IMG/VR virus record: IMGVR_UViG_3300034375_002172
Span: 1-29,799 of that record
Direction: 5' to 3' (one strand)
Length of the DNA: 29,799 bases
DNA from: a virus
Shown: positions 10,613 through 26,610 of the stretch, piece by piece
Layout: the number at the start of each line of letters is the position of its first letter
Numbering within the stretch: position 1 is the first letter of the stretch
Position numbers and translations under genes: made by a program
Notes under the pieces: generated by a model
Database searches by the model: none
Seen by the model: the letters and a program-made list of their open reading frames with translations, nothing else
What the model was told of the DNA's origin: nothing

Positions 10613-11197
10613 ATGCCAAGAGTAGCTGATTCATCATTAGAAGTTGCAAGCAACGCATTATATCTTATTGGTGCTGACGGGATTACCGACTTTGCAGCTA
10701 GTACATCTGAAGCAAAAGTAGCTAATGCTTTATATGAAGACATAATACAAACTTCATTTGCTTCTTTTCGTTGGCGCTTTGCTACAACTCAGATAAATCT
10801 TACACGCTTAGCAACCGCTCCAAAGGGTAGGTTCTCAGCGTCTTATCATATTCCTGCATCTTGCGTTACGGTAATAGGCATAACTATTAACGATGCACTG
10901 ATTAAGTACGATATCTATAGTAATAAAATATTCTGTGACGCGGATGCAAGCGATACCGTTGTCTTAGATTATGTTGAGAGAGCGCCTGAGTCTAGCTGGC
11001 CTTCTTACTTTACTACAGCAATTGAGTTTACTCTTGCTGGTTCCTTTGCAATCTCTTTAGCTAGAGATGCACAGCTTGCTCAGTTAATGGAGCAGAAAGC
11101 TGCGGCATTGTTTATGAAGGCTAGGAACATTGATTCTCAGCAGCAAACAACGCGCAAGCTAACAACATCGAGGTTTATTGCTGAAAGGCGCAGTTAA
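10613..11197 (+). CDS. Tail tubular protein A (T7 gp11-like)
   Basis: This 194-residue protein matches T7 gp11 (196 residues) in length and pattern. The N-terminus has SNALYLIGADGI, then ANALYEDIIQTSFASFRWRF, LTRLATAPKGRFSASYHIP, and a late helical part with LAGSFAISLARDAQLAQLM. Twelve copies form the adaptor ring between portal and nozzle. No alternative in-frame start exists, because the upstream frame is closed at 10580-10582. The only ribosome site is beyond the hairpin described above. It ends in a TAATG junction with tail tubular B. Confidence 0.88.
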   Translation: MPRVADSSLEVASNALYLIGADGITDFAASTSEAKVANALYEDIIQTSFASFRWRFATTQINLTRLATAPKGRFSASYHIPASCVTVIGITINDALIKYDIYSNKIFCDADASDTVVLDYVERAPESSWPSYFTTAIEFTLAGSFAISLARDAQLAQLMEQKAAALFMKARNIDSQQQTTRKLTTSRFIAERRS

Positions 11198-14052
11198 TGC
11201 AGAAAGTAAGAGTTCCAATTAACAGCTTTCAGTATGGAGAAATCAGTGACTCATTAATAATGAGAACGGATTCACCTGTTTATGGACAGTCGGCTCAACG
11301 ATTAGAAAACTTAATTGTTATGAGCGAAGGTTCTGTAAAGAAGAGAACTGGCCTAAAGCATATATATAATTATGGAATTACTTTTAATTCGACTTATCCA
11401 GAGCAATCTCATTTATACAAATTTATATTTGATGACAATGAAGAGTATATAATATCTATTGAGCATCAAAAAGTAAGATGTTTTCAACTTGAGACAAATG
11501 GCAATGTAACTTTAGTTCAGACGCTTACTACTGATGTTGATTCAGTAGCACTTCCATTTGATCAGCAATATTTGCAAGAATATACAGCTGCTCAATATGG
11601 CGATGTTATGTTTATATCGCATCCTTTGTTTGCACCTAGAATGCTTACAAGAACAAGCCTTACTTCTTTTGAAATAGATACTTATTCATTTGATGCGCGA
11701 GCAGATAATAAGGTTACTTATCAACCGTACTCAAGATTTCAAAGCTCTAGTCTTTTGTTTGACCCAAGTGCAGTAAGTGGATCAATTACAGGGTTTGTAT
11801 ATTATGATGTAACCGCAGTAGCGCTTGACACAGGCATTGGATATACACCTTGGGTTCCTACTCCTGCGGCAGCATCAGAATTTGGAAAAACTGGAATATT
11901 TCCAGAAGCAAGGCAAATAGTAATTACGCCTTCTATAAGTTCTACAAGAACACATACAATCAATGGCACTAATATAAGCGGAACATCTATTAGTGAAACC
12001 ATTAATACAACTAGCAACTCAGCAGCAACTTCAACAAAGTATTTTAAAACAGTTACCAGTATTACTACAACCTCTGCTACGGGAGGTTATAGAATAGATA
12101 CTGGAGTTAAAGGCAGTCCAGCTTATTTTTCATCAGGCCATGTTGGTACAATAATTAGATATCACGAACAGGAAATAGAAATTACAGCAGTAACAGATGC
12201 AGCAACAATAGCAGGTACTGTTGTTGATGAGCTTGTTGCACGTTTATCTGTTCTTAATCCACTTAGAACAAGAGACGGCTCAAGCACGGTTGAAGTTACT
12301 CAAATTAATCATGGCCTTAATGTTGGTGATGCAATTACAGTACAAGATGCTTCTGCAACAGGTGGTATTAATAGTGGTAATTTAAATGTTACAGATCAGG
12401 TTAGAGAAATAATAGATGATAATACTTACACATATCAGGCTGGTGGCTCCGCATCTAGCAGCGAAGATGGTGGCGGTCATGTGTCTATATCCTGTCATGC
12501 TCCAACAACAACATGGGATGAGCAATCATTCTCTGCTGTAAGGGGATATCCTGCTGCTGTTGTATTCCATGAAAACAGGTTGTGTTTTGGCGGCACGTTA
12601 TCTGAGCCTGATACAATATGGATGAGTAAGATTGGTAGCTTTTTTAACTTTGATGTAGGTGAAGCTGCTGATGATGATTCAATTAACTTGGTCGCTGCAA
12701 CTGGTGATTCTCATGAAATAAGATACATGATTTCTAATCGTGATCTTCAAGTGTTTACTTCTACTGGTGAACTATATGTTCCTACTTACTTGAATCAAGC
12801 AATTACTCCGACTAACGCTCAGATAAGAATGCAAACACCATATGGTACAGAGTTTGTAACACCAACATCTATAGATGGTGCGACTATATTTGTGCAGAAG
12901 AATGGTAGGATTATTAGAGAATATTTATACAGTGATTCTGAAGATGCATATACAGCATCTGCTATTTCGACTTTAGCTTCTCACTTAATTGATTCTCCAA
13001 AGTATTTATCTGTGGCTCATAGTGGATTTAATCTTGCAGATTCATATGCCGCTTTCTCACTAACTAATGGTGATTTAATTCTGTTTACCTCTAATAGGGC
13101 TGAGAAGAGAGCGGCTTGGACTAGGGTTAGCACGTCTGGTAGCTTTGGATCTGTTATAGCAATACACAGTAGATTGTTTGCAAATGTATATGACAGCAAT
13201 GGTAAGTTACATCTTTGTGAGTTTGATACAGATAGAGGCTTAGATTTATGGCAAAGTAAATCTGTTGTTGCCAATAAAGTAGATGCAAGTGACGTTTATA
13301 GCAATGGAGATGTAGTTGATGTATATGGGTATGCTTCTTCTAGCGGCTATACTTACTTAAATCAGTTCACTGTAGATAGTAATGATGACATTGATTTGTC
13401 TGCATATGCTACTCCCTCAACAGTAAATTATACAGTTACTGTAGTAAATGATGGCGGCAATAAGTATGCAATAGCTGGCATATCTGGTTCTGCTCCTACT
13501 CTTAGTTTTTCTCGCGGTAATACATATGTGTTTGATCTTTCAGATTCATCAAACTCTGGGCATCCTTTTGCATTTAGAACAAGCGCAGATGCGTCTTACA
13601 CAACTGGTGTAACAACAACAGGAACCGCTGGGCAAGCTGGAGCAAAGGTTACTATAGTAGTGGCTAGTGATGCGCCAGCTTCTTTAAAGTATTATTGCAC
13701 AGTTCATGGTAATTCTATGGGCAATACAATTGCGGTTAGTGATTTTGTTAATACTTATGAGAGCGCTGAGTTTGGCAAGAAGTTTACCGCTAAGTTAGTA
13801 AGCAATCCAATAGATGCAAACATGGGCAATGGGCCTTCGACTGGCACAACAAGAGGAATTACCAACATTGTTGTTGATGTTAAATCAACGGAATCAATGA
13901 AGGTAAATTCAAACGATGTTGTTAGTTCAAGTTTTACTGGCAAAAAAGAAATAAAGACTTTGGGTTACAATAGGAATCCACAGATAACTATTGAGCAAGA
14001 CAAGCCACTAGGCTTACAGATTAATGGAATAGTAGCGGAGTTAATAGTCTAA
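11197..14052 (+). CDS. Tail tubular protein B / nozzle with cupredoxin-like insert
   Basis: The N-terminus (FQYGEISDSLIMRTDSPVY, then NLIVMSEGSVKKRTGLKHI) is typical of T7 gp12-type nozzle proteins. So is the central part with YPAAVVFHENRLCFGGT and IWMSKIGSFFNFD. At 951 residues it is longer than T7 gp12 (794). Much of the excess is an insert at about residues 742-850. This insert has SFSRGNTYVFDLSD, GHPFAF and YYCTVHGNSMGN. It looks like a cupredoxin domain with His789, Cys834, His837 and Met841 in place as copper ligands. A Ser/Thr-rich region around residues 245-290 may be a second loop insertion. The C-terminus resumes the nozzle pattern (YNRNPQITIEQDKPLGLQI). Confidence 0.9.
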   Translation: MQKVRVPINSFQYGEISDSLIMRTDSPVYGQSAQRLENLIVMSEGSVKKRTGLKHIYNYGITFNSTYPEQSHLYKFIFDDNEEYIISIEHQKVRCFQLETNGNVTLVQTLTTDVDSVALPFDQQYLQEYTAAQYGDVMFISHPLFAPRMLTRTSLTSFEIDTYSFDARADNKVTYQPYSRFQSSSLLFDPSAVSGSITGFVYYDVTAVALDTGIGYTPWVPTPAAASEFGKTGIFPEARQIVITPSISSTRTHTINGTNISGTSISETINTTSNSAATSTKYFKTVTSITTTSATGGYRIDTGVKGSPAYFSSGHVGTIIRYHEQEIEITAVTDAATIAGTVVDELVARLSVLNPLRTRDGSSTVEVTQINHGLNVGDAITVQDASATGGINSGNLNVTDQVREIIDDNTYTYQAGGSASSSEDGGGHVSISCHAPTTTWDEQSFSAVRGYPAAVVFHENRLCFGGTLSEPDTIWMSKIGSFFNFDVGEAADDDSINLVAATGDSHEIRYMISNRDLQVFTSTGELYVPTYLNQAITPTNAQIRMQTPYGTEFVTPTSIDGATIFVQKNGRIIREYLYSDSEDAYTASAISTLASHLIDSPKYLSVAHSGFNLADSYAAFSLTNGDLILFTSNRAEKRAAWTRVSTSGSFGSVIAIHSRLFANVYDSNGKLHLCEFDTDRGLDLWQSKSVVANKVDASDVYSNGDVVDVYGYASSSGYTYLNQFTVDSNDDIDLSAYATPSTVNYTVTVVNDGGNKYAIAGISGSAPTLSFSRGNTYVFDLSDSSNSGHPFAFRTSADASYTTGVTTTGTAGQAGAKVTIVVASDAPASLKYYCTVHGNSMGNTIAVSDFVNTYESAEFGKKFTAKLVSNPIDANMGNGPSTGTTRGITNIVVDVKSTESMKVNSNDVVSSSFTGKKEIKTLGYNRNPQITIEQDKPLGLQINGIVAELIV

Positions 14053-14537
14053 TGGAACCAATAACAATGGCTATGATTGGAGCAAGTGCATTAAGTGTAT
14101 TTGGTCAAATATCTGCTGGTGTTGCTCAACGAGAAGCATCTAAATTAAATGCTTTTCAAATTAAAACAGATCAAGCCTTAAATAAAACTCAAGCTATGCA
14201 AATGTCTAGGGCAAGAAAGGAAGAGTATGACTTAGCAACATCAGCTAATATAGCTGCATTTGCTGCTGCTGGTCGTGATGTTGGTTCTGATAGAAGTGTT
14301 CAAGCATTCTTAGATAGACAAAAGGAAATTATTGCTCAAGACACTGGTCGCATAGATCAACAAATTCAGTTTCAAAATATGAAGTCTAAATCAGCAGCTA
14401 TGGCTGAAAGAAGACGTGGAGACAATGCTTTAACTGCGTCTTTATTTAGTGCTGTTGGCACTGCTTCTCAGGGTATTTATCAATATCAAACTGTAAAAGC
14501 GCCAGCCGCACCGCGCGGTGGTGGAGGAGGCAAGTAA
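14052..14537 (+). CDS. Internal virion protein B-like (T7 gp14-type)
   Basis: This 161-residue protein begins with a hydrophobic helix (MAMIGASALSVFGQISAGVA), then a long helical, Gln/Ala-rich part (AAAGRDVGSDRSVQAFLDRQ). It ends with an Ala/Gly-rich tail (KAPAAPRGGGGGK). The AFAAAGRDVG...SV..FLDR.K pattern and the place right after the nozzle gene fit T7 gp14-type proteins. In T7 these pass into the cell at infection and form a pore in the outer membrane. It starts in a TAATG junction, and the next ATG follows its stop directly. Confidence 0.8.
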   Translation: MEPITMAMIGASALSVFGQISAGVAQREASKLNAFQIKTDQALNKTQAMQMSRARKEEYDLATSANIAAFAAAGRDVGSDRSVQAFLDRQKEIIAQDTGRIDQQIQFQNMKSKSAAMAERRRGDNALTASLFSAVGTASQGIYQYQTVKAPAAPRGGGGGK

Positions 14538-17500
14538 ATGGCTGTTATTAGACAAAGAACTCAAGTCTTTAATCAGCCTGTTGGTGTTGTGCGCTCAGAT
14601 GCTGGCGGCGCGCAAGTAGGTGAAGCTATTAGTAACGCAGCTTCAAGGATTTCTCAACTTGCATATAGAGAAGCTGCTCAAAATGCAGAGGCTGCTGGTA
14701 AAAAAGCTGCTCAATCTCAACCATCTGATAAAATAATTGCTATTGATCCTACTACTAATATGCCTGTGGCTTACACGCCGCCTGCTTCATTTGGAACTAT
14801 TGCTGCTAGATCATATCAAAACATGATTGATCGTAGATTTGAAGAATCTATTCTTAGTGAGTTTGCTGCTAAGGGTTCAGAGTTTGCGTCTAGCTCTTCA
14901 AGTGCAGATCAATATAAATCCCGTATAAGTAATTACATACAGGAAATGTACAACTCAGAAGGTGAAGCAACTCCTTATAGTAGATACATTGAAGAAGCTG
15001 GAAAAGAATATGTAGCTAGCACATATGCATCTTTAGCAAAAAAACAGGCTGAAGCGGCAAAGAAAGCATTAATAAATCAGCAGTTAATGTCTGGTTATCT
15101 TGATGAAAAAAAGCTGGTTAATCTTATTGGGGCTGGTGCATCTAATGAAGACATAACAAGTTTAGCAAACTCTCTTCGCGCTAGGTATTTAGATTTAAAA
15201 GACACAGACAGCATGACATTTAAACAATGGAGATCAGCCAATGATCGCATTGATGGGCTTGAAGGGTTATATGCTAACAATAATCTTATAGATATATACT
15301 CTACGCTGTCGCCTTCAGATCAATCTTTATTTAAGCTTGGCCTTACTAAGCCAAATATTATGAGTAGCTTGGCTAATAAAATAGGCAGTAATAACTTAGA
15401 GACTTTAGCTTTAGAAGCCAAGACAACAACAAGCATACCTACTTTGCTTGCTGGTTTAGATTCTTTTGCCTCTATTGCTGATGAATATGTAGAGAACCAG
15501 ACTAATAGCATTCTATCTGAAGTAGGTTCAACTATAAGCGCTTCGACATTGGTAGCAGATATAGAAGCTATGGGAGCAAAAATTGAAGACAAGTCTGTTA
15601 AAAATGAAGTAATGTCAGAGTTGCTAGCAAAATGGGTGGAAAAAAACCTAGACGCGGCTGGCAAAAAAGCATCTGATATAGACATTATTTCTGAAGCTCT
15701 TTTAGATGAATCCTCACCAGATTATCAAGCAATAGCTGATTTAATTGGTGGTGATCAAGGTGAGTCTGTAGCAAGACAAATACAAGGAATGACTCAAGAG
15801 CAAAGATCTAATCTTGCAACTGAGATTAGCGAAAGACGAGCGGCTTTAACTCGGATGGAAAGTAAAGCTGACTTAGAAAAAGAAAATAGATTACGTCAAA
15901 GCTTAATTGATTTTAAAAATTCTACTGATTTAAATGCAAGCTTTCAGTCTGCTTTATCAAACATAGAAGCATCTGGATTAGATGAAACAATTCAGCAAAC
16001 TTTAATAGGACTTGCTAGGCAAAACTTTGCCGAACAATCTAGAATAAAAGTAGACAGAATAAAGTTAAGCAAGGTAGATATTCAAAACTTAAAAAATTCT
16101 GTAACTCAAGAAAGAACAGATTTAAAAGGCAATGTTAAAGAAGCTTACAATTTGCTTAGAGAGGTTTACAAGTTTGATGCTTCAAGCACTTCTGCTTATT
16201 TAGATAGAAAACTAGAAGCAGTTACAGAGCAAAACGATAGATATATTATTGGTATGAAGATAGATGCTATTCAAAGCAATCTTTCTACTGCTAGCCCTAA
16301 TGATTTAGCAGAGTATGATTCTTATTTATTTAAAGATGAGTTTATAAATGCTGCTAATATGCTTGAGTTTCCTCAAATCGTAGAAGCTCTTAATCAAGGC
16401 GTTGTACTTCCATCTGTTAAAGTAGCTATGGAATCTGCCCTTACTTCAAATAGTGAAGATGTTTTAAATAATGCAATCCAAGTGTTTGATAAATTTTCTA
16501 ATCTTGAAGCTACTACCGAAGATGGTCGACGCACTAATTTAGATATAATGCGTAAAAATCTTAGTCCAGAAACATACGCATTATATTCTGCAATGAACTT
16601 TGTTGCTCGCGAACAAGGCGTAGAGCCATTGTCTATTGCTCTTGAGTTTAGAAACTACGATGGAAATGTTGATAATGACATTAAGGCAGATCTTGATTTG
16701 CCAAAAAATGGAAATATCAACAGAGCATTAGACACTTATCCAATGAGTAGTAATTATAAAAAAGAAATATTAGCAACTCTTCGGATGCAAAAAGTAAGGG
16801 GTAATGTAATTACTGAGGATTTAATATCTTCTGTAATAAATACCTACACTTCAAAGATGAAAAAAGATCCTAGTGTTGTTGGGCCTTATATTGGTGATAG
16901 CACTGCATTCCCTAGGAATAATTATTTTTCAAATGATGAAATTATAGCAAACAGAAACCAGCTAACAAATCTTCTTGCTGATTCAGGTCAGTTTAATGAT
17001 CTTTTAAAAGGAGATAATGCACTTGATACAATGGCTTTTACTTTAGGTGGTATTCTTGGTGGGGATGTAATGCTTACGTCAAGAGCTATTGTTGAAATGT
17101 TTACTACTGGAGTAGGTGCTAATGAAGAGCTGTCTGATAGAAATAGAATAAGACAAGGTTTAGCTGCTTTAAATATAGATTTAAAATACAATCCTGTTGT
17201 TTCGTCTATTGAGTCAGGTGTTCCTATGTATGAAGTTGGATATCTAGATCAGTTTGATAGCTTCCAACCTATTATGATTAATGACCAAACTTGGACTTTA
17301 GAAAAAACTGAATCAACAAGAAAACAAGATCTAACTCTTCAGTCTTTTAATAATTTAACTGTAGCTAACAATGCAGACGCTCCAAAAGCTGAAAGGGCTA
17401 TTGCAGAAATAAATTACTTAGCAAGCCTTCCTCACATGGATGAAGAAACATTTATTAATAATCCTTCTAACATGGCAACGTACAAAGAAATTTTTGGTGA

Positions 17501-17981
17501 TAATACAACAGCATTAAATATTTTTAGAAGTCGGCGCGAAGTTTATACAGGATCTAAGAATGCTAAAGATTTAAATTTGTCTTTGCAGGAAATAGAAGAA
17601 ATACAAAACTTGCCTACTAATGTACCACCAAGGCCAAATCGAGATCCTAAATATACTGATACAGAAATTATGACAATGAATAGAAGTCAGTTAGCGTCTG
17701 CATTTTCTAATATAGAAGCATGGGATTCTAGATATGGAAATTACTATAATCTTGATGGTTCTTTAAAAGAACAATATGCAGCTGCTCATGCTGTTCCACC
17801 GCGTCCATTACGCACTGAGCTTTATCCACAGTACACTGATACTGAAATAATGACCATGACCGTACAACAACAGCTTTCTGCATTTCCAGAGCTATATGCA
17901 TGGGACAAGCTTTATACAAACACACACAATAATGATGGAAGCCTGAGAAAGCAGCCAATAATAACTGGTTTAAATAAATGA
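14538..17981 (+). CDS. Large internal virion protein (T7 gp15-type)
   Basis: This 1147-residue protein is almost wholly helical and lacks signal peptide or clear membrane segments, as expected for the gp15-type part of the ejection channel. The N-terminus has TQVFNQPVGVVRSDAG and an Ala-rich helix (YREAAQNAEAAGKKAAQ). It is longer than T7 gp15 (747). The last 119 residues are a tandem duplication of a 57-residue unit beginning VPPRP and containing YTDTEIMTM, starting at residues 1029 and 1086. It sits between gp14-like and gp16-like genes and overlaps the latter by ATGA. I see no lytic enzyme motif. Confidence 0.8.
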   Translation: MAVIRQRTQVFNQPVGVVRSDAGGAQVGEAISNAASRISQLAYREAAQNAEAAGKKAAQSQPSDKIIAIDPTTNMPVAYTPPASFGTIAARSYQNMIDRRFEESILSEFAAKGSEFASSSSSADQYKSRISNYIQEMYNSEGEATPYSRYIEEAGKEYVASTYASLAKKQAEAAKKALINQQLMSGYLDEKKLVNLIGAGASNEDITSLANSLRARYLDLKDTDSMTFKQWRSANDRIDGLEGLYANNNLIDIYSTLSPSDQSLFKLGLTKPNIMSSLANKIGSNNLETLALEAKTTTSIPTLLAGLDSFASIADEYVENQTNSILSEVGSTISASTLVADIEAMGAKIEDKSVKNEVMSELLAKWVEKNLDAAGKKASDIDIISEALLDESSPDYQAIADLIGGDQGESVARQIQGMTQEQRSNLATEISERRAALTRMESKADLEKENRLRQSLIDFKNSTDLNASFQSALSNIEASGLDETIQQTLIGLARQNFAEQSRIKVDRIKLSKVDIQNLKNSVTQERTDLKGNVKEAYNLLREVYKFDASSTSAYLDRKLEAVTEQNDRYIIGMKIDAIQSNLSTASPNDLAEYDSYLFKDEFINAANMLEFPQIVEALNQGVVLPSVKVAMESALTSNSEDVLNNAIQVFDKFSNLEATTEDGRRTNLDIMRKNLSPETYALYSAMNFVAREQGVEPLSIALEFRNYDGNVDNDIKADLDLPKNGNINRALDTYPMSSNYKKEILATLRMQKVRGNVITEDLISSVINTYTSKMKKDPSVVGPYIGDSTAFPRNNYFSNDEIIANRNQLTNLLADSGQFNDLLKGDNALDTMAFTLGGILGGDVMLTSRAIVEMFTTGVGANEELSDRNRIRQGLAALNIDLKYNPVVSSIESGVPMYEVGYLDQFDSFQPIMINDQTWTLEKTESTRKQDLTLQSFNNLTVANNADAPKAERAIAEINYLASLPHMDEETFINNPSNMATYKEIFGDNTTALNIFRSRREVYTGSKNAKDLNLSLQEIEEIQNLPTNVPPRPNRDPKYTDTEIMTMNRSQLASAFSNIEAWDSRYGNYYNLDGSLKEQYAAAHAVPPRPLRTELYPQYTDTEIMTMTVQQQLSAFPELYAWDKLYTNTHNNDGSLRKQPIITGLNK
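17622..17960 (+). repeat. C-terminal tandem duplication (57-aa unit) in gp15-type protein
   Basis: Two protein units begin VPPRP, share YTDTEIMTM, then Q/S.LSAF or LASAF, AWD..Y, and DGSL(K/R).Q. They start at 17622 and 17793. The DNA has diverged clearly more than the protein, so the duplication is old and maintained. Confidence 0.75.
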
Positions 17982-24831: not shown

Positions 24832-26610
24832 ATGTTAGGTTTTTCCCCACTAGCTTCTGCGCCACTAGCGGATAGTGGGGTTACATCTGTTGACTATGCT
24901 TTAACGGCAGATGCTGGGAGCTTTGCGCTTACGGGGCAGACTGCGGATCTTAACGTAGGTTACAATCTTTCTGCAAATGCTAGGCTGTCTACTTTTCAGT
25001 TTAAAGACGCTGACTTTGTTAAAGCGTTAAATGTTGCAGCGGGAACAGGCAGCTTTACAGTCACGGGTCAAACTGTTGCTCTTAATAAAGCTGTAAACTT
25101 AGCGGGTGGCGCAGGATCTTTTGCTCTTACGGGGCAAGCCGCTGATTTCGCTAAGGCTTTAAATGTAAGCGGTGGAACAGGCAGCTTTACGCTTACTGGG
25201 CAAGACGCTGGCATTTTAATCGGAGAAATCTTTGAGACAGGAGCCTTTGCGCTTACTGGTCAGACGGTCGGCCTTAATAAAGCTGTTGTTATGTCAGCAG
25301 CGACAGGCAGTTTTGCAGCCACAGGACAAGCAGTTGATTTAAATAAAGCAGTAAAAGTTTCTGGTGGCACAGGTAGTTTTGTACTGACAGGCCAGACGGT
25401 TACATTTGGTAATGCTTACTTGTTGGCCGCAGCTACTGGATCGTTTGCTCTTACTGGCAGCGCGGTAGACTTTGGCATTGGTGAAGCATTTGGAACGGGG
25501 AGCTTTGCGCTTACGGGTCAAGGCATTAATATTAATAAGGCTGTCCGTATCTCAGCAGATGCTGGCAGCTTTGCTTTGTCTGGACAGGCGGCTGTGCTTG
25601 ATCCAAACTTTGGCAACAAAATTATTGCACAAGTCGGAAGCTTTGCTCTCACAGGACAAACTGCACAGATAACAAAAACAATGTCTGTTGATTTGGGTGC
25701 AGGATCTTTTGCGCTGACGGGTCAAGCGGCAAGTATTGCAGCAGGTAGGTTGCTTACAGCAAGCACAGGATCGTTTAGTTTATCTGGGCAAGCGGTAGAT
25801 TTTAACAAGCAGCTTAATGTAAGCGCAGCAACAGGATCGTTTACGCTCACTGGTCAGAGTGTAAGCTTTGTTGCTGGTGCGCTGATTGCTGCTGGTACTG
25901 GTACGTTTGCAACGAGCGGCCAAGATGTAAGCATTGCTGTTGCTAGATTGCTTGAAGCTAGCGCGGGATCGTTTGGATTAACTGGTCAGGCTGTTACGAT
26001 AAACCGCACAGTAAAAATGACTGCTGATGTCGGTGCGTTTATTCTGACTGGTCAAGATGCTGGCGTACTTATCGGCGAGATCTTTGAGACTGGTGGTTTT
26101 AGTTTATCTGGGCAAGCTGTTGGTTTAAACAAGGCTGTAAAACTATCGGCTGGTACTGGTTCGTTTGCTTTGACAGGGCAAGATGTTTCTATTGTTGCTG
26201 GCGCAAGGCTTGTTGCTGATGCAGGATCGTTTGCTCTTACGGGGCAAGATGTATCTATTAAAAGATCTATAACTGAAAGCTTTGGCGCGGGTTCGTTTGC
26301 CTTAACTGGTCAAGATGCTGGCTTAGCTCAAGCTAGAAACTATAATCTTACAGCAAGTCATGCTTCGTTTGCTCTGACTGGGCAAAGCGTTGTCTTTATA
26401 AACGGCAAGTCAATTGTTGCAGATGTCGGAAGCTTTGCCTTAACAGGACAGGATTCTTCTCTAATTTATATTAAGGCTATTGTTGCTAACCCAGATATAG
26501 ATGTCGCTACTGAAGCAATAATTTATAACTCTACTTCTCAGGTTTTAATAACAACAAGCTTCAATGATGTTATTCTTCATGAAGATATAGTGTTTGCAAA
26601 TGTAGCTTAA
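24832..26610 (+). CDS. GSFALTGQ-repeat fibre protein (592 aa)
   Basis: The start MLGFSPLASAPLADSG is a common marine phage virion-protein N-terminus. From residue 29 to about 540 the protein is about 23 copies of a unit near 22 residues long with consensus GSFALTGQ, then two variable hydrophobic strands (for example AVDLNKAVKVSGGT). A degenerate extra copy lies between units 1 and 2. Each unit is likely a pair of strands with a turn, so the whole may form a long beta-solenoid or trimeric fibre shaft. The last 50 residues (ANPDIDVATEAIIYNSTS onward) are non-repetitive and could be a tip. A role in host contact is inference. Confidence 0.8.
   Translation: MLGFSPLASAPLADSGVTSVDYALTADAGSFALTGQTADLNVGYNLSANARLSTFQFKDADFVKALNVAAGTGSFTVTGQTVALNKAVNLAGGAGSFALTGQAADFAKALNVSGGTGSFTLTGQDAGILIGEIFETGAFALTGQTVGLNKAVVMSAATGSFAATGQAVDLNKAVKVSGGTGSFVLTGQTVTFGNAYLLAAATGSFALTGSAVDFGIGEAFGTGSFALTGQGININKAVRISADAGSFALSGQAAVLDPNFGNKIIAQVGSFALTGQTAQITKTMSVDLGAGSFALTGQAASIAAGRLLTASTGSFSLSGQAVDFNKQLNVSAATGSFTLTGQSVSFVAGALIAAGTGTFATSGQDVSIAVARLLEASAGSFGLTGQAVTINRTVKMTADVGAFILTGQDAGVLIGEIFETGGFSLSGQAVGLNKAVKLSAGTGSFALTGQDVSIVAGARLVADAGSFALTGQDVSIKRSITESFGAGSFALTGQDAGLAQARNYNLTASHASFALTGQSVVFINGKSIVADVGSFALTGQDSSLIYIKAIVANPDIDVATEAIIYNSTSQVLITTSFNDVILHEDIVFANVA
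24910..26460 (+). repeat. About 23 tandem repeats of a ~66-base coding unit
   Basis: The protein motif G(S/A/T/G)F..(T/S)GQ recurs with an average period of about 22 codons. DNA copies vary in synonymous sites (for example ACGGGGCAG, ACTGGTCAA, ACAGGACAG), so protein sequence is held while codons drift. Confidence 0.85.

Follow-up and report, generated by a model that had tools for sequence, protein, structure and literature searches.

The window analysed here is the whole 29,799-nt stretch of DNA from the IMG/VR virus record IMGVR_UViG_3300034375_002172. It encodes a T7-type tail nozzle that carries an additional domain, predicted to be a cupredoxin, with four candidate metal ligands. The features of the locus are:

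10613..11197, plus strand: gp11-like tail gene, just upstream of the nozzle (phrog_394 tail protein, E = 2e-35).
11197..14052, plus strand: T7 gp12-like tail nozzle, the carrier of the predicted cupredoxin domain (951-aa ORF).
13411..13749, plus strand: extra domain, predicted cupredoxin, residues about 739-851 (limits from siblings without the domain; AlphaFold2 fold).
13561..13563, plus strand: His789, first candidate type-1 ligand, in GHPF (profile-aligned on the plastocyanin ligand His).
13696..13698, plus strand: Cys834, sole Cys of the domain and candidate ligand, in YYCTVHGNSM (sequence; plastocyanin profile alignment).
13705..13707, plus strand: His837, second candidate His ligand (sequence; plastocyanin profile alignment).
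13717..13719, plus strand: Met841, candidate axial ligand (sequence; plastocyanin profile alignment).
13750..14049, plus strand: nozzle C-terminal region beyond the domain, with 56-91% identity in the 18 siblings that lack it.
14052..14537, plus strand: internal virion protein gene, just downstream of the nozzle (phrog_418, E = 9e-7).

The carrier belongs to the T7 gp12-type nozzles by sequence, as the first-pass annotation had proposed, matching the PHROGs tail protein family phrog_376 (E = 1.2e-84) and the PDB entry 8ck1, 'Tail Nozzle' (E = 1.1e-29). A Foldseek search with the full-length model placed phage entries at ranks 1 to 16, mostly with tail or portal-tail titles and with T7 6r21 included; this model was too poor overall (pLDDT of 57) to place the domain within the nozzle. 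Gene order followed the arrangement of adaptor, nozzle, and internal virion proteins; upstream of these, the window also encodes head-tail connector and major head proteins. A phrog_342 match was found in the third gene after the nozzle, beyond an intervening 1147-aa ORF (14538-17981); neither this ORF nor a 592-aa ORF at 24832-26610 matched a PHROG at E <= 1e-3. Nozzle residues 364-422 (12286-12462) had a weak match, below the cut-off, to the endosialidase beta-barrel PF12195 (E = 0.0034).

The limits of the additional domain were drawn from sibling nozzles, which were fetched by the C-terminal flank alone. These came from 27 loci, with 26 ORFs examined (L002, already seen, was left out); the domain was present in eight and absent in 18. 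Alignment with the domain-less siblings put it at about residues 739-851, with borders at ...DLSAYA on one side and NTYESAEFGKKF... on the other, giving a domain of about 113 residues (12 kDa). The insert proposed earlier is real, with the ORF reading in frame through 13420-13745, but is slightly longer than the 105 or so residues first given. The query for domain searches was 13393-13752. In one sibling (L347), a different, longer sequence stood where the window nozzle has the domain. We tentatively take the domain to be a gain in the carriers rather than a loss in the siblings. The nozzle profile aligned to the solved nozzles 8ck1 and 9efk as far as its positions 557 and 622, respectively, out of 738, which is short of the insertion site. 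Because of the domain order of T7 gp12, which includes a fibre dock and a platform in the passages of PMC6702177 that describe it, the domain would lie on the outside of the nozzle, in one of these two parts.

AlphaFold2, run on an alignment of 37 close relatives, predicted the domain with high confidence (pLDDT of 93.0, pTM of 0.85) as beta strands and one short helical turn, arranged in the Greek-key beta barrel of cupredoxins. Searched against the PDB with Foldseek, the model had eight matches at E <= 0.001, with rusticyanin best (2.1e-4), followed by a three-domain nitrite reductase, laccases, and AcoP. The best VIA-align match was 2dv6, the N-terminal domain of the Hyphomicrobium denitrificans nitrite reductase (Z of 10.2, 2.5 A over 103 residues, 21% identity). 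Z was at least 8 in 126 of 999 chains, and the best 50 of these were nitrite reductases, two-domain laccases, and coagulation factor VIII, all of which are cupredoxin-fold proteins. One structural match was titled 'Immunoglobulin domain-containing protein'. Amicyanin was not among the matches listed by Foldseek against the PDB, by VIA-align, or by the profile of 57 relatives described below, which excludes nothing. The cupredoxin fold first suspected from the strand pattern is borne out by these models, and the domain is predicted at high confidence to be a cupredoxin, of plastocyanin-like shape.

Translation confirmed the four residues named by the first-pass annotation (His789, Cys834, His837, and Met841), their motifs GHPF and YYCTVHGNSM, the 45-residue distance from His to Cys, and the spacing C-x2-H-x3-M. 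At the level of sequence, the type-1 set of His, Cys, His, and Met is therefore complete. An HxH motif was absent from the domain sequence, in which His occurs only at 789 and 837.

A profile built from 57 diverse relatives and searched against the PDB ranked 9cck first, a Nitrosopumilus maritimus enzyme with a C-terminal cupredoxin, with a whole-protein E value of 6.5e-4 that sums two stretches scoring 2.7 and 12 separately, neither of them significant. Cyanobacterial plastocyanins came next at a weak E value of 0.02, and in the plastocyanin alignments listed the His, Cys, His, and Met of the family fell on the His, Cys, His, and Met of plastocyanin. These matches owe much to the YYC-x2-H...M...G motif, and the same list contained antibody chains bearing YYC. 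Because of the antibody chains and the two weak stretches summed for 9cck, this profile is insufficient by itself to carry the cupredoxin claim. With a profile of the 37 close relatives, the PDB matches included a multicopper oxidase (0.042), and no cupredoxin fell below 0.01. No cupredoxin model in Pfam or NCBIfam reached its cut-off with the window domain; Pfam PF00127 (Copper-bind) matched four of the 57 relatives at E <= 1 (best 0.003) and the window domain not at all. A single-sequence phmmer search of the PDB returned TAL effector repeats, ribosomal protein L31, and a few others, with no cupredoxin; the TAL effector rows were judged spurious, being sums of many stretches of which none passed singly.

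Conservation of the ligands was assessed in a ligand-blind sample, for which two DNA motifs without ligand codons, one located before the first His and one between His and Cys, were scanned in IMG/VR (at least 120 stretches each). Duplicate domains were removed before counting, as were rows that covered under 85 model positions or lacked the Cys region. His, Cys, and His were all kept in 206 of the 226 distinct domains; 14 more scored as having lost all three, some of these being rows in which the local match breaks off close to the Cys, three as Cys only, and three as first His only. Under a stricter cut, with the ligand region fully covered, all three were present in 203 of 219 domains, none in 11, the Cys only in three, and the first His only in two. 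One partial-ligand case (L257) is a contig end. Met followed the second His at x2 in 168 of the 206 complete domains and at x3 in 34, and was absent at x2 to x4 in four, such that the x3 spacing in the window is the minority form of the family. When the sample was thinned at 80% identity, 103 of 120 domains kept the set and 11 had lost all three; at 50% identity, these numbers were 18 and four of 24.

Deviation at the Cys correlated in the blind sample with deviation at the second His (0.92), the first His (0.81), and the Met (0.51), with 0.26 for the best other column. As a control, other column triples were scored for joint loss equalling that of the ligands; there were none among 2,300 at full depth, 32 among 1,771 at 80% identity, and seven among 220 at 60%, the thinned control being weaker since decay of a domain affects several of its conserved residues at once. 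These alignments partly demonstrate that the ligands are lost as a set, a claim that we keep moderate. The clearest losses were in proteins starting with MATITFTVTV or similar (e.g., L159, L161, L120, L171, and L186), in which barrel residues were kept and the ligand residues had changed to differing letters. Since ligand-less domains retain the fold pattern, some uses of the domain would not require the metal.

Pooling all samples, a single Cys was present in 265 of 268 domains with the ligand set, and none in 16 of 17 that lacked the ligand Cys. A disulphide inside the domain was rejected on these counts, the ligand Cys being the lone Cys in those 265. The set was also kept in all 37 close relatives and in 57 of 57 domains from the candidate IMG/VR stretches; these figures are not our main evidence because one search pattern covered the Cys-His-Met region, and the invariant H, C, and H of the 57-relative alignment arose by construction, ligand-less representatives having been left out. 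Altogether, the survey bears out the retention of the four residues in related phage proteins, chiefly through the ligand-blind sample. Two ORFs (L191, residues 1066-1182, and L259, residues 1102-1217) had Tyr in place of both His and the Met while keeping the Cys (GYPF ... YYCSLYSGYG), possibly an altered site.

At the codon level, the window domain differed from its copies in L334, L337, and L338 by 26 to 30 synonymous and no nonsynonymous changes across 110 codons. The same pairs had 5.5 to 10 nonsynonymous changes in nozzle residues 431-732 (302 codons) and two to six in residues 852-951, the 100 codons after the domain. The three comparisons are not independent, owing to shared history (dS of 0.09 in the domain between L334 and L337). 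A second domain allele (L335 and L339) had 24 nonsynonymous differences with all ligands kept. Judged from these sequences, the pattern in the closest copies is unlike that of a diversifying receptor-binding domain.

Relatives of the domain were found well beyond nozzles. The window domain, searched by tblastn, had matches in 66 of 50,697 phage records at E <= 1e-5, and the version in S-B68 in 176 of these records at E <= 1e-3. By the first word of the record name, from which all host and marine groupings here are taken, the 176 comprised Synechococcus (131), Cyanophage (16), Prochlorococcus (16), Pelagibacter (4), Methylophilales (4), Marine (3), uncultured (1), and phage (1). Among uncultured viruses, 199 of 222 candidate IMG/VR stretches had the domain, and against PHROG tail families it reached E values down to 2.1e-20. 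Together with the ligand retention in the blind sample, these matches speak against a chance pattern. In ten named phage loci, His, Cys, His, and Met were present in all 12 domain copies counted. Annotated carriers included tail fibres, baseplate wedge tail fibre connectors, baseplate wedge subunits, structural proteins, and hypothetical proteins; of ten uncultured carriers scanned, three belonged to phrog_376 (nozzle), two to phrog_3287 (virion structural), and the rest to tail or tail fibre families. The module family thus spans several kinds of tail protein in phages of unrelated hosts. The idea of a metal site special to the ejection nozzle is weakened, given the same module in other tail proteins.

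Some carriers combined the domain with other modules. The 1600-aa protein of S-B68 (L083:2333-7132) has four DUF7483 stretches besides the cupredoxin domain, and in the gp6-like baseplate wedge of S-SSM4 (L089:4298-7759) a match to the YHYH domain PF14240 (best stretch, residues 456-507) adjoins the cupredoxin (312-461). Cellular genome records contributed few relatives, at nine loci, with SAR86, SAR116, and Flavobacteriales among them, and in two of the nine the proteins had LTD or dockerin domains. These are a 754-aa protein from a SAR86 record that matches lamin-tail domains and ends in the cupredoxin (L331:3051-5312) and a 235-aa protein from a Flavobacteriales record with the domain and a dockerin (L329:4770-5474).

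The predicted fold and the ligand survey support the first-pass reading that an intact type-1 set argues for a metal site over a bare scaffold. A selected metal site is well supported by sequence and model, and copper is its most likely metal because of the ligand set. We put first, with moderate confidence, the explanation that the domain is a cupredoxin with an intact, selected type-1 site serving as a metal-locked external tail module with a generic job. Under this explanation, the plastocyanin-like domain would be an accessory module of the nozzle's C-terminal part, presumably present six times in each virion by analogy with hexameric T7 gp12. The barrel would hold a single metal ion, with copper the likeliest, between His789, Cys834, His837, and Met841, an occupancy and identity that we infer from the residues; the bound metal would lock the barrel loops into a rigid, degradation-resistant module on the outside of the tail. 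Its job would be cell-envelope spacing or docking, or tail stability, and not host-specific receptor recognition, since the closest copies had no amino-acid change and since the module occurs in varied tail proteins and across a wide host range. Across phages of Synechococcus, Prochlorococcus, Pelagibacter, and Methylophilales, the same ligand set recurs in fibres, fibre connectors, and wedges.

Zinc and redox chemistry are the main rivals to a metal-locked stability or docking module. Known type-1 sites are adapted to electron transfer, an adaptation that a mere structural lock would not need; this counts against our preferred explanation and in favour of a true blue-copper redox centre, cycling between Cu(I) and Cu(II) on the tail and serving envelope sensing or the trigger of a tail change, for example by electron exchange with host envelope proteins or by oxidant scavenging. 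The complete ligand set, with Met at x2 or x3 in 202 of the 206 His, Cys, and His domains, and the electron-transfer cupredoxins (e.g., rusticyanin) among the top fold matches also speak for this reading, which we nevertheless consider unlikely: no partner or conduit has been identified, and a module at differing places in differing tail proteins fits poorly with the trigger of one machine. A structural Zn(II) or other metal, acquired because the protein folds in the cytosol, which offers little free copper, seems to us a little less unlikely than the redox centre. Zn uptake can occur in cupredoxins produced in the E. coli cytosol, and Zn also binds to His2-Cys sites. The axial Met, by contrast, should be unneeded for Zn and is retained at the frequency just given. 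A Zn-binding YHYH domain, a predicted Zn hydrolase, has itself been predicted in phage tails in the portions of PMC7824862 that treat it, and one such domain follows the cupredoxin in the S-SSM4 wedge.

Behind these we put a copper Trojan horse and a bare scaffold, both of which we regard as quite improbable. In the former, host metal-uptake proteins would recognize the tail metal, a copper counterpart of the Ferrojan Horse hypothesis, which takes as its basis the HxH iron sites of T4 gp37 and of tail fibres from marine phages, as outlined in passages of PMC11705849. The names of the 176 phage records, those of picocyanobacterial, Pelagibacter, Methylophilales, and marine phages, agree with such a role, but no host receptor is known, one module serves hosts as unlike as cyanobacteria and SAR11, and the lack of amino-acid change in the closest copies is unlike a receptor arms race. 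For a bare scaffold, the domain would be a spacer or binding module of Ig-like type, its His, Cys, His, and Met being relics or packing residues, as might be suggested by the 11 of 219 fully covered domains without all three ligands and by the structural match with an immunoglobulin title. Retention in 206 of 226 domains over deep divergence, joint loss, and the occurrence in 265 of 268 domains of a Cys with two His nearby and no second Cys speak against it and are consistent with the metal-locked module.

Naming the domain has consequences beyond this locus, as in PHROGs, Pfam, and phage records the module has so far been fibre, wedge, structural, or hypothetical; it now gains a name and a testable function. 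Iron is a known phage-tail metal, according to the relevant passages of PMC11705849, and a cupredoxin with a full type-1 set, shared by several families of tail protein in marine phages, would bring copper, and perhaps redox chemistry as well, into virion biology. If copper is bound, the copper dependence of infection becomes testable in cultured Synechococcus and Pelagibacter, and phage particles would be a class of copper ligand to count in seawater. Whether marine phages of cyanobacteria, SAR11, and OM43 share true type-1 copper centres, with redox or copper-sensing roles at the envelope, is a larger proposal that we hold only tentatively and think rather doubtful; if true, the tails of ocean phages would be copper-dependent machines and a pool of seawater copper ligands. 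Among the papers listed, we found no description of a cupredoxin in a phage tail, the literature searched being mostly open-access with few subscription journals or preprints.

Among known systems, the domain most resembles the plastocyanin- and azurin-like cupredoxins (PF00127), sharing the predicted fold, the four aligned ligands, and the YYC-x-x-H...M.G.I.V end. Unlike plastocyanin, it is part of a virion tail protein; the first His is followed by P in the phage family (HP in 206 of 268) and by N in plastocyanin (HN), and the loop from His to Met is shorter (x2 or x3). The best structural match, the N-terminal cupredoxin of the nitrite reductase in 2dv6 (Z of 10.2), and the cupredoxin of 9cck are enzyme domains, whereas no enzyme was recognized in the phage carriers. 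The end of 9cck (C-T-L-H-P-W-M, that is, C-x2-H-x2-M) is like that of the family, in a stretch that is not significant alone. Amicyanin also has the spacing C-x2-H-x2-M, the main form in the phage family, and is set beside it by spacing alone. Outside the cupredoxins, the iron sites of T4 gp37 and marine phage fibres likewise place metal on a phage tail, where the site described here is a candidate; HxH sites combine a fibre trimer with iron, in the account given in parts of PMC11705849, whereas the phage domain is predicted as a single-chain beta barrel with a His2-Cys-Met set. The YHYH domain (PF14240), to judge from the sections of PMC7824862 concerned with it, is similarly a predicted metal domain of tail proteins and differs in belonging to another family and in being a predicted Zn hydrolase.
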